Assembly (NCBI GenBank): GCA_001803165.1
Contig: MHAZ01000021.1
Coordinates: 186,001-250,000, forward strand
Length of the DNA stretch: 64,000 bases
From: Stygiobacter sp. RIFOXYC2_FULL_38_25
Lineage (GTDB): Bacteria; Bacteroidota; Ignavibacteria; Ignavibacteriales; Melioribacteraceae
Direction of reading: 5' to 3'
Positions 46,909 to 51,174 of this stretch are shown one piece after another. The position numbers and the translations under genes were made by a program. The notes under the pieces were generated by a model, which worked only from the letters and a program-made list of their open reading frames with translations, was not told where the DNA came from and made no database searches. Position 1 is the first letter of the stretch. Every line of letters starts with the position of its first letter.

Positions 46909-47331
46909 ATGGAAGACTTTTTAATTAGCGAAAACCGATATGATTATTTACCTCTTTCTCAGAAAGAAGAGCAAATTGGGAAAGCCATTGTAAACTCTGC
47001 TTATAAAGTTCACAGAGAATTAGGTCCCGGATTGCTTGAAAAGGTTTATGAAGTTTGCTTAGCCCATGAGTTAACCAAATGTAATTTTAGCGTAATACGC
47101 CAACTTGATGTTCCTATTAAATATGATAATATAACGTTTGACGAAGGATTGAGGCTCGATTTACTCGTGGAGAATTTAGTTGTTTGCGAACTCAAAGCTG
47201 TTGAACTTGTTAATCCGGTTTGGGAAGCACAAATTCTGAGTCATCTAAAACTTACCGGATTACGTTTAGGTTATTTAATCAATTTTAATGTGCCTACTAT
47301 TAAACAAGGAATTAAAAGATTTATTCTTTAG
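46909..47331 (+). CDS. GxxExxY protein
   Basis: A 140-residue protein of the GxxExxY family. The naming motif is in HRELGPGLLEKVYEVCLAHE, and the conserved second half is RLDLLVENLVVCELKAVELV, then QILSHLKLTGLRLGYLINFN. Family members resemble PDDEXK nucleases (DLLVEN and CELK would be the core), but a function has not been proved to my knowledge. It sits in a 475-base interval bounded by short inverted repeats, like an inserted cassette, between hflX and the first ammonia-lyase gene. Confidence 0.88.
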   Translation: MEDFLISENRYDYLPLSQKEEQIGKAIVNSAYKVHRELGPGLLEKVYEVCLAHELTKCNFSVIRQLDVPIKYDNITFDEGLRLDLLVENLVVCELKAVELVNPVWEAQILSHLKLTGLRLGYLINFNVPTIKQGIKRFIL

Positions 47332-48941: not shown

Positions 48942-48995
48942 AGTTTTTGAATAAAAATATTATTAGTTTTCAATAGTATCTATTTCGGGGTGCTA

Positions 48996-50513
48996 ATGTT
49001 TAATTATAATTCTATCATTACTTCCTCTAGATTACGACCATCAAGTATTCAAAGAAGTTTTCTACCTGATGAAATGGAAAGTGATCGAGCACGTTTATTG
49101 TTTTCTAGTCCATTTCGAAGACTTCAACAAAAAGCTCAGGTATTTTCACTCGAACATAATTCAGCCGTTCGGAGCAGATTAACTCATTCCCTTGAGGTCG
49201 CTCACTTAGGTCGTTCTATTGCAAAAAATATTTTACATAGCTTGAAGGGAAATTCCCAAACCTATGGTCTCAATAATTTAGATATTCAACAATCTTTTAT
49301 AGATGTGGTTGAGTCTGCATGCCTTTTACACGATATTGGAAACCCGCCATTTGGACATTTTGGAGAAATCGCAATTCGAGATTGGTTTACCCAACACGGC
49401 AAGGAATTATTTTCAAAAAGCATAGATAATCAACTTACAGGAACCGACAATGAACGTAAGACTGAGTTTAAAAATGATTTTGACTCTTTATTTTTTCCAG
49501 ATTTTAAAGAGTTTGATGGAAACGCGCAAGGATTCAGAATAATCACCAGATTACAATGGAATAGAGATTCTTGCGGTTTGAATTTAACGTGTTCATTATT
49601 AGCTGCATTTATAAAATATCTTAGGTGCCCTGCTGATATTAAAGGTGTTGACAAGGCAAAGCATATTTACAAAAAGCCTGGTTTTTTTTATTCGGAGAAA
49701 GCACTGTTTGAAAACGTATGGAAAATTCTTGGTTTGCGAATTGATTCAAGACATCCATTGAATTATATCATGGAAGCTTCCGATGACATTGCATATTGTC
49801 TTAGTGATATTGAGGATGGAATTGAAAAAAAATTAATTTCAGAAGACTTTTTCAAAAGTGAAATAAAAAGAGAATATGAGAAAATTATTGACGGGAAAAC
49901 ACAGATTGATATACTAAATAAATGTATTTCAGATGCTGAATTATTAGCAAATAAAATTCAAAATAGTTTTTACTTCAATTTTAAAATTGATTTGACGCGA
50001 AAATTAGTCATAGTAGCCGCCAATGAATATATTAAGACTCACAAGGAAATTCTGGAAGGAAGAAGATCTTGCGGACTTTTTGACGGTACTGACCATGCCA
50101 GCCTTATTTTAAAGGCTCTGAAAGAGTTTGCTAGGAAGAATTTATACACTAAATCTGACGCTGAGAACATTGAATTAGCAGGCTATTCAATAATTAGTGG
50201 CTTACTGACAAAATTTGCTCCTATATTGTGCCTATGCTTTGATGATTTTACTACAGTGCAAAATGGAGGTTTTCGACTTCGAAATGGACTTCCTACTGAC
50301 ATTGAGAGGCGATTATTTCACAGATTACCTCCTAAATATGTAAAAGTTTACAAAGATAAAATTCAAGAACTCGCAGATGAGAGTAATATTGATATCTATC
50401 TGGAAGAATGGTATTATAGAGCGCATTTAATAGTTGACTATATTTCCGGTATGACAGATTATCATGCCCTGGAAACGTTTCAATTACTATCAGGTATAAA
50501 AGTTGACGCATAG
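48996..50513 (+). CDS. Deoxyguanosinetriphosphate triphosphohydrolase (dGTPase, Dgt-like)
   Basis: Hydrolyses dGTP to deoxyguanosine and triphosphate. The 505-residue protein matches the long E. coli Dgt type from end to end. HD-domain ligands: RLTHSLEVAHLGRSIAKNIL, CLLHDIGNPPFGHFGEIAI and IMEASDDIAYCLSDIEDGIE. Further Dgt-specific strings are FRRLQQKAQVFSLEHNSAVR and the C-terminal WYYRAHLIVDYISGMTDYHA. The ATG at 48996 is preferred over a GTG two codons earlier. Its 3' end overlaps the next gene by 11 bases. Codon use looks more AT-rich than the flanking lyase genes, suggesting transfer; dGTPases occur in antiphage systems. Confidence 0.93.
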   Translation: MFNYNSIITSSRLRPSSIQRSFLPDEMESDRARLLFSSPFRRLQQKAQVFSLEHNSAVRSRLTHSLEVAHLGRSIAKNILHSLKGNSQTYGLNNLDIQQSFIDVVESACLLHDIGNPPFGHFGEIAIRDWFTQHGKELFSKSIDNQLTGTDNERKTEFKNDFDSLFFPDFKEFDGNAQGFRIITRLQWNRDSCGLNLTCSLLAAFIKYLRCPADIKGVDKAKHIYKKPGFFYSEKALFENVWKILGLRIDSRHPLNYIMEASDDIAYCLSDIEDGIEKKLISEDFFKSEIKREYEKIIDGKTQIDILNKCISDAELLANKIQNSFYFNFKIDLTRKLVIVAANEYIKTHKEILEGRRSCGLFDGTDHASLILKALKEFARKNLYTKSDAENIELAGYSIISGLLTKFAPILCLCFDDFTTVQNGGFRLRNGLPTDIERRLFHRLPPKYVKVYKDKIQELADESNIDIYLEEWYYRAHLIVDYISGMTDYHALETFQLLSGIKVDA

Positions 50514-51174
50514 AATTTGTTTTAATAACCATCCCATTGAGCTATTTTTCTCAAAAATTTTGCCGCAACTACCAAGTGAGGCAGAATTATCTTTTAGTGC
50601 TTACACATATAAACCACAATCTATTATAGAGCTAAGAGAAACCAAGAAATTCTTGGTAAGAGAGATAGATATAACATTAATTGAAAATCTTTTCGCCTCA
50701 TTAGATAAAAATCAAGAATTTGCAATTAATTCTGCGATAAAATTTCCCGATGGAAATATTAAACATATTCCTATGATCGACTTTCTAACGGGGTCGATCA
50801 AAACTGTAAGGTCTATTATGCCATTAATTATCCAATATCCAATTATAGAAAACATGTACATATATGATTCGGGATCATCCTATCATGGATATAGCACTTA
50901 CTTAATTGATGAAAAAAGTTGGGTAAAGTATATGGGATTATTGCTCCTTCTCAATCTTCCCGGTAAAGAGCCAATAATCGATTACAGATGGATTGGGCAC
51001 AGATTGAATGCTGGTTATGGAACCCTTAGATGGACAAGTAATTCAAAAAAACATTTACACGAACCTCGTTATTTGTTCGGATTACGAAAAAATGAGGCAA
51101 CTCGCAATAATTCAATTATTGATGAAATTGACTTAAAAGCAATTCCTCAGGAAGATTTGTTTTTATCTTTATAA
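50503..51174 (+). CDS. Hypothetical protein, possibly primase-polymerase (AEP)-like, coupled to dGTPase
   Basis: A 223-residue protein starting at a TTG inside the last codons of the dGTPase gene, so translation is probably coupled; no ATG is available near the start. Possible archaeo-eukaryotic-primase-like order: a hydrophobic strand ending in Asp (HIPMIDFLTG), then IYDSGSSYHGY resembling the SGxxYH motif, then IIDYRWIGHRLNAGYGTLRW resembling the third motif with its Asp and Arg-rich tail. A clear DxD first motif is missing. It lacks a signal peptide and is AT-rich. The family link is a pattern-based guess; the overlapping arrangement is certain. Confidence 0.6.
   Translation: MTHRICFNNHPIELFFSKILPQLPSEAELSFSAYTYKPQSIIELRETKKFLVREIDITLIENLFASLDKNQEFAINSAIKFPDGNIKHIPMIDFLTGSIKTVRSIMPLIIQYPIIENMYIYDSGSSYHGYSTYLIDEKSWVKYMGLLLLLNLPGKEPIIDYRWIGHRLNAGYGTLRWTSNSKKHLHEPRYLFGLRKNEATRNNSIIDEIDLKAIPQEDLFLSL

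Follow-up and report, generated by a model that had tools for sequence, protein, structure and literature searches.

The dGTPase gene pair

The DNA analyzed here is a 64,000-nucleotide stretch of contig MHAZ01000021.1 of Stygiobacter sp. RIFOXYC2_FULL_38_25 (positions 186,001 to 250,000; "the window" denotes this whole stretch, not the gene pair alone). On its forward strand it carries a two-gene unit consisting of an HD-domain dGTPase gene of the Escherichia coli Dgt type (48996..50513, 505 amino acids [aa]) and a gene encoding a 223-aa protein that resembles the archaeo-eukaryotic primases (AEPs; 50503..51174). The dGTPase frame, which stops at 50513, can begin at ATG 48996 (505 aa) or GTG 48990 (507 aa). 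The AEP-like gene starts with TTG 50503, a position approximately equivalent to the starts of its relatives; its first ATG is found only at 50773. The ORF coordinates give an overlap of 11 bases (50503..50513, + strand), which probably reflects translational coupling of the two genes. The pair is located between two lyase genes, HAL1 and HAL2, both of the HutH type, and synteny with three related genomes (G042, G034, and G006) delimits an inserted unit at 48942..51174. The GC content of the pair is 0.331 compared to 0.382 for the window, a value as low being reached in 6 of 248 same-length sliding windows. A sequence-only reading of this DNA had described a full-length Dgt-like dGTPase overlapping a primase-like gene by 11 bases, more AT-rich than its surroundings and placed between two ammonia-lyase paralogues, and all of these descriptions hold.

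The dGTPase is complete, matching NF003429/PRK04926 over model positions 3 to 499 of 500 (E 8.3e-150; 499.9 bits versus a curated cutoff of 405), with an HD domain recognized by PF01966 (E 2.5e-09) and a match to the PADLOC dGTPase model (1e-68). Its nearest solved relative is E. coli Dgt (4x9e, 1.6e-86); the structures of CloA, the dGTPase of the Clover defense system, are also among its solved relatives (9p8s to 9p8v, E 2.8e-50 to 3.1e-48). The catalytic HD pair (H112-D113) and HE dyad (H121 and E124), encoded at 49329..49367 (+ strand), are invariant in our dGTPase alignment (A2) and correspond to CloA H117/D118 and H126/E129. Likewise, all 11 dGTPases with an AEP-like partner that were compared keep the six positions reported as catalytic in CloA.

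The AEP-like partner

The second gene product belongs to Pfam family PF24387 (Archaeo-eukaryotic primase 1D-like; E 1.7e-34, 118.9 bits, gathering cutoff 27). As the protein matches this family, the AEP-like motif order suspected from the sequence (MIDF; DSGSSYHGY) is real, and the profile search of 50503-51174 proposed with that suspicion thus found its AEP family. An AlphaFold2 model built from 15 sequences (mean pLDDT 83.8, pTM 0.79) was compared with known structures using VIA-align 2. The top match was the PrimPol of cyanophage S-2L (6zp9; Z 10.7, 160 residues, root mean square deviation 3.6), followed by RepB' and primase small subunits (PriS), and 35 chains reached a Z score of at least 8; sequence identities are about 10%. 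Foldseek alone gave a weak result, with a sole match at an E value of <0.001 (2atz), followed by the LigD polymerase domain and primases. Taken together, the partner is predicted to adopt the AEP fold and to belong to the AEP superfamily, rather than to have the non-AEP fold that would have spoken against the sequence-only reading. A PDB sequence search with the profile of the AEP-like family (A1) returned nothing beyond chance matches. The Foldseek match, 2atz, is HP0184 of Helicobacter pylori, one of the partner's best structural matches (Foldseek E 9.2e-04, VIA Z 9.2). An identity as Cas6 was considered and rejected, the matches being far under cutoff (TIGR01877, E 0.021; PADLOC, E 0.0055).

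The AEP active site is described by motifs I (hhhDhD/E), II (sxH), III (hD/E), and, in some families, IV (Rh) (PMC5862659). In the partner, motifs II, III, and IV are intact, as SGSSYHGY with S126 and H128 (50869..50892), I159-D160 (50977..50982), and R176-W177 (51028..51033), respectively, all on the + strand. Motif I (IPMIDF, 50767..50784, + strand) retains a single carboxylate, D93, and lacks the second acid. D93, S126, H128, D160, and R176 are found in 17 of 17 aligned family members and in the two members found later (L056 and L057). Of the 19 members, L018 alone has the second motif I acid, as a glutamate. Because it is absent from the other 18, polymerase activity of the partner is doubtful, and the primase or polymerase function suggested by the sequence-only reading could not be upheld. 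In S-2L PrimPol, a serine (S116) has been proposed on the basis of simulation to take over from a shifted motif I aspartate (PMC8065100), and S126 would be its counterpart by motif position. This correspondence and the invariant motif residues make nucleotide binding by the partner likely. L018 itself (L018:2492-3646) is a protein of an archaeal metagenome-assembled genome, in which an N-terminal extension precedes the PF24387 domain and motif I has the usual D-x-E form.

Recurrence of the pair across bacteria

We collected 19 distinct PF24387 members that were over the cutoff or confirmed by tblastn: the window protein, G137, 13 genome-contig matches including one from Pantoea, two viral contigs, G1141, and a Mycolicibacterium plasmid. 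A dGTPase gene lies directly upstream of the AEP-like gene in 12 of them, ranging from Bacteroidales to Vibrio and Acidobacteria (the window, G137, Pantoea, two Acinetobacter, two Vibrio, Sedimenticola, Aliidiomarina, a betaproteobacterium, a Bacteroidales, and an Acidobacteria genome). The sequence-only reading would also have failed had homologs of the second gene never been found beside a dGTPase; that did not occur. Among the 11 intact pairs, the genes overlap by 1 to 11 bases in 10 and are separated by 3 bases in one; the Pantoea genes are 5 bases apart by annotation. Across 11 pairs, the distances between the dGTPases are correlated with those between the AEP-like proteins (r 0.85, a value reached in 0 of 10,000 permutations), also after two close relatives were dropped (r 0.77, 1 of 10,000 permutations). 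The pairing is recurrent, and dGTPase and AEP-like partner form a real two-gene unit.

In the ten fetched genomes with a pair, the coupled dGTPases scored 610 to 688 bits with profile A2, which was made from nine of these ten together with those of the window and G137, while other dGTPases in these genomes scored at most 430. Another dGTPase was present in 8 of the 10 genomes, and the window's own genome carries a second deoxynucleoside triphosphate (dNTP) hydrolase (G000:C21:424163, open frame 434).

Two pairs showed peculiarities. The dGTPase gene on the Pantoea plasmid (L004:10430-11959) has an in-frame stop and is annotated as two genes, while its partner gene stays open. In the two Vibrio species (L007 and L011), the AEP-like proteins are 90% identical and the dGTPases 63%, as if the dGTPase were evolving faster or had been exchanged.

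Distribution and insertion site

The AEP-like partner was absent from 57 other relatives of the window's genome, and PF24387 was rare in all profile samples. It exceeded the cutoff in 2 of the 395 genomes sampled from the phylum (one of them the window's own), in 1 of 369 genomes of the Vibrio class sample (the genome on which the sample was centered), in 1 of 249 of a further sample (the center, with two more below the cutoff), in 3 of 247 of another (the center, a known Vibrio aestuarianus genome, and G1141), and in 1 of 199 in each of two more (the centers). Signals below the cutoff came from L052 and L053, both with stops, from L059, and from a control signal in Bacillus subtilis. A DNA-level search of E. 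coli genomes with part of the Pantoea pair, a weak test, returned no match.

Relatives of the window's genome reveal the site without the pair. In G006, a member of the same family, the order is BatA-hflX-HAL2, without the GxxExxY gene found in the window, HAL1, or the pair; the G006 sequence becomes homologous to the window again at 51161. In G042 and G034, which belong to another family, hflX is followed by orthologs of HAL1 (64% identical) and HAL2 (85%), with no dGTPase or AEP-like gene between the lyases, which in G042 are about 70 bases apart. As relatives carry both lyases without the pair and the homology in G006 resumes at 51161, the two lyase genes are resident and the pair was inserted between them. 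A phage-type integrase gene is located directly upstream of the two Acinetobacter copies (L006 and L009). Overall, the pair is a mobile unit.

Scanning viral sequences with the window AEP-like protein alone or with A5 gave no match, scans with A1 and A3 both returned the same two contigs (L019 and L020), and phage records contained no match to the AEP-like family. L019 and L020 are large viral contigs (181 and 163 kb), each with a solo PF24387 gene; that of L019 lies within a run of repeated short proteins, the one scanned of which matches DUF285. These solo genes could be decoys, counter-defense genes, or a sign of a viral origin of the family.

Matches to defense models in the neighborhoods

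At 10 of the 12 loci with a coupled dGTPase, PADLOC models were used to scan the two or three nearest ORFs per side, 41 proteins in all (a single one on the right side of L013). For this pooled scan, 25 of 75 matching PADLOC families were listed without member names, and matches were assigned to loci from separate scans of neighbors picked by eye; the neighbors of the Pantoea copy are known from annotation only. At an E value of <1e-10, PADLOC models matched nearest neighbors in 6 of the 10 loci. These included an MkoA-like, type IIG-like helicase (L005); IetS and a type III-like helicase (L010); a cytosine methylase and an ATPase matching the REase_II and spbK models, with AbiH further out (L014); a type IIG enzyme one gene away (L015); and, in L007 and L011, a helicase and a restriction-modification control-type helix-turn-helix protein whose gene overlaps or abuts the dGTPase gene, with IetS further out in L007. 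No match at 1e-10 was obtained among the singly scanned nearest ORFs, which are not all of them, of L006, L009, L012, and L013. Among 46 of the 48 other ORFs of the window, the PADLOC families (25 of 29 listed, without their member ORFs) bear only four names, PDC-S02, PD_DExK, GlgB, and TPR, and therefore the window copy is not in a recognizable defense island.

Comparison with Clover and other dGTPase systems

The closest known parallel is Clover, in which the CloA dGTPase is activated by dTTP and restrained by pppTpT, the product of the Pol-beta nucleotidyltransferase CloB (PMC12265719). Both are two-gene units of a full-length HD dGTPase with common catalytic residues and a nucleotidyltransferase-type partner. 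However, CloB has a Pol-beta fold while the partner described here is a PF24387 protein with a predicted AEP fold, and the window dGTPase is nearer to E. coli Dgt (1.6e-86) than to CloA (2.8e-50). We mapped 25 CloA residues named in PMC12265719 onto the 11 coupled dGTPases. Of the ten residues of the p3diT pocket, R38 and N181 are kept in all 11 (both also occur in E. coli Dgt), R314 is a lysine, F41 is kept in 2 (the window among them), and N75 is kept in 1. Of the nine dTTP residues, all 11 enzymes retain R47 and T449, and none retains D61, K256, S418, or A444 (the last contacting through its main chain); Q172 is kept in 5 (including the window), N420 in 2, and Y452 in 2. As both pockets are largely not conserved, the pair appears to follow a Clover-like logic without being Clover, and its ligands, if any, are probably different. 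A role of p3diT as ligand is unsupported, the CloA pocket residues being largely replaced. With its different partner fold, the pair represents a variation on the dGTPase-plus-nucleotidyltransferase kind.

Other known systems share individual features with the pair. A predicted depletion of dGTP is common to the antiphage dGTPases (SpdGTPase 9p8w, NF041026, and PADLOC dGTPase), but the window enzyme is closest to PRK04926, scores far under the NF041026 cutoff (175.7 bits versus 400), and comes with a partner; SpdGTPase is a more distant relative (8.5e-23). Cyanophage S-2L encodes both an HD-domain dNTPase (DatZ) and an AEP-fold PrimPol in one genome. However, that PrimPol has all motifs as well as PriCT-2 and C-terminal domains, and S-2L is a phage with 2-aminoadenine DNA (PMC8065100). 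No published description of a dGTPase coupled to an AEP-like protein emerged among the literature matches listed, nor did the literature searched yield a functional report on PF24387. The word "primase" is absent from PMC12265719, which cites Nicastro et al. 2023 for dNTPase-nucleotidyltransferase pairs, where related systems could be described; the available text of PMC12839542 held nothing relevant.

Proposed function and alternatives

The pair is probably a compact antiphage defense in which the partner controls the enzyme. More specifically, we propose a two-gene, horizontally acquired antiphage module with the dGTPase as effector and the AEP-like protein as a nucleotide-based regulator, a reading to which we give about an even chance. 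When released, the dGTPase would destroy dGTP and thereby starve phage DNA synthesis. The AEP-like protein, produced from the overlapping frame, would be its dedicated regulator and would act through nucleotides, most likely by making, or else by binding, a small nucleotide that holds the dGTPase in check; a change in the dNTP pool upon infection would then end the restraint. Primases initiate with a 5'-triphosphate dinucleotide, which is of the same chemical class as p3diT of Clover. The invariance of two out of three metal ligands is why we tentatively rank signal synthesis by the AEP-like protein above a role as a dead sensor. Clover provides a precedent for a dGTPase and a nucleotidyltransferase working in this way (PMC12265719). 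The sequence-only reading had already suggested a compact defense module. Its defense context is apparent at other loci, while defense itself, dGTP depletion in vivo, the sign of the regulation, and any product are what we infer.

Several observations weigh against this proposal. Position +2 of motif I is nonacidic in 18 of the 19 members, the window included, and because motif I carboxylates are essential in the AEPs studied (PMC5862659), catalysis by the partner may have been lost. Seven of the 19 members (L016 to L020, L056, and L057) have no adjacent dGTPase, although the L016 contig begins 20 bases upstream of its PF24387 gene. Moreover, the patterns for the genome-contig scan came from three members linked to a dGTPase, so that the coupled fraction is inflated. 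The phylum and class profile samples added two new members over the cutoff, G137 with a dGTPase and G1141 with a patatin, and an unbiased coupled fraction therefore rests on two cases. Shared ancestry can explain part of the correlation between the distances of dGTPases and AEP-like proteins. The p3diT residues T25, R29, R34, D37, and Q311 of CloA are replaced in all 11 coupled dGTPases, T25 and R29 lying in a poorly aligned stretch. Finally, the PADLOC matches nearest the pair are generic in L007 and L011 (helix-turn-helix protein and helicase), and the window's own neighborhood looks metabolic.

The missing acid of motif I would be accounted for if the same defense module used the AEP-like protein as a catalytically dead sensor of nucleotides or DNA ends, which directly binds and gates the dGTPase without producing a signal. 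The presumed nucleotide-binding residues S126, H128, and R176 are invariant, and overlapping genes fit subunits of one complex. However, the metal ligands D93 and D160 are invariant as well, which is unusual for a pure binder, and S126 is placed like S116 of S-2L PrimPol, the proposed substitute for the motif I acid (PMC8065100), so that the partner may still be catalytic. We consider a dead sensor possible but somewhat unlikely. That S-2L PrimPol is the top structural match of the partner, and that S-2L has an HD dATP triphosphohydrolase alongside its PrimPol (PMC8065100), raises the question of a DNA synthesis or repair pair in which the AEP-like enzyme polymerizes and the dGTPase shapes its substrate pool, by analogy with the DatZ-PrimPol combination of S-2L. 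This is very unlikely, as the conserved unit consists of two genes only, with neighbors varying between loci; the partner is a 223-aa single domain with an incomplete motif I; and one relative has a patatin gene, rather than a dGTPase gene, ahead of it.

A further alternative is that the pair does housekeeping of the nucleotide pool and takes no part in defense, its neighbors reflecting islands that collect any mobile gene. This would agree with the few PADLOC matches among the metabolic-looking genes of the window and with the 4 of 10 coupled loci (L006, L009, L012, and L013) lacking a match among the singly scanned nearest ORFs. It is difficult to reconcile with the rare and patchy distribution of the pair, with the second dNTPase carried by the window's genome and by 8 of the 10 fetched genomes, with an insertion site that is empty in relatives and integrases beside two Acinetobacter copies, or with the restriction, IetS, helicase, or regulator genes beside the pair in 6 of 10 loci, and we regard it as improbable.

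Clover solves the problem of arming a dGTPase safely by means of an inhibitory dinucleotide made by a nucleotidyltransferase. The pair suggests that this two-part dGTPase logic arose again with an unrelated, primase-fold partner, possibly one that serves other effectors. If the primase-like protein of the proposed antiphage module makes an immune signal, nucleotide-based immunity would gain a new class of enzyme; if it has lost catalysis and serves as a sensor, the primase fold would have been reused for watching the dNTP pool.

Other partners of PF24387 proteins

Three single cases place PF24387 genes beside something other than a dGTPase. In G1141, the PF24387 gene (L056:7521-8204) shares its first base with the end of a patatin phospholipase gene (PF01734, E 2.6e-25; a match at 7e-09 to the PADLOC phospholipase effector model), an apparent effector swap in which patatin stands in place of the dGTPase. 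On a Mycolicibacterium chubuense plasmid (L057:2485-6429, NC_018022), with an integrase nearby, a PF24387 gene is the third gene after one for a ThsA-like SIR2 protein, in the order SIR2 (ThsA model, 2.5e-63), DprA (ShosA, 2.8e-51), phosphoribosyltransferase (weak ShosT match, 1.2e-05), and PF24387; as Shosta-like genes intervene, this link is loose. In L017, the PF24387 gene is preceded by an AAA+ gene matching the IetA and TRIP13 models and by a gene with weak, sub-cutoff radical-SAM and nucleotidyltransferase matches. The overlap with patatin and the proximity to a ThsA-like SIR2 gene suggest that the AEP-like partner changes effectors and recall CBASS and Thoeris, but no CD-NTase or ThsB match was obtained among the three and four genes scanned in the G1141 and M. 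chubuense loci, respectively.

Tentatively, and with less confidence than we give to a dead sensor, PF24387 may be a new class of immune nucleotide-signal enzyme on a primase fold, which makes or once made a primer-like dinucleotide controlling various effectors. It is equally tentative that these effectors would usually be a dGTPase, once a patatin phospholipase, and possibly a SIR2 NADase. If true, PF24387 would be the primase-fold counterpart of the CD-NTases and of CloB. The G1141 locus (L056:5488-8204, G1141:C16) also has a second patatin gene near the overlap of patatin and PF24387 genes.

Further insertions at the locus

In G034, two other genes (330 and 312 aa, L047:5817-7811), neither of which matched a PADLOC model, are found between the same two lyases. 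The site between the lyases may therefore take inserts repeatedly, with a different insert in G034.

The sequence-only reading had placed the pair beside a GxxExxY cassette. A GxxExxY (PD-DExK) gene is indeed present in the window (46909-47331; TIGR04256, E 7.3e-40), with no PADLOC match when its protein was scanned alone, but HAL1 stands between it and the dGTPase pair. As HAL1 intervenes and a tblastn search of the other 11 coupled loci yielded no relative of GxxExxY, the gene was ruled out as part of the module. A relative was likewise absent from the fetched stretches of G006, G042, and G034, and the GxxExxY gene is a second insertion, located between hflX and HAL1.

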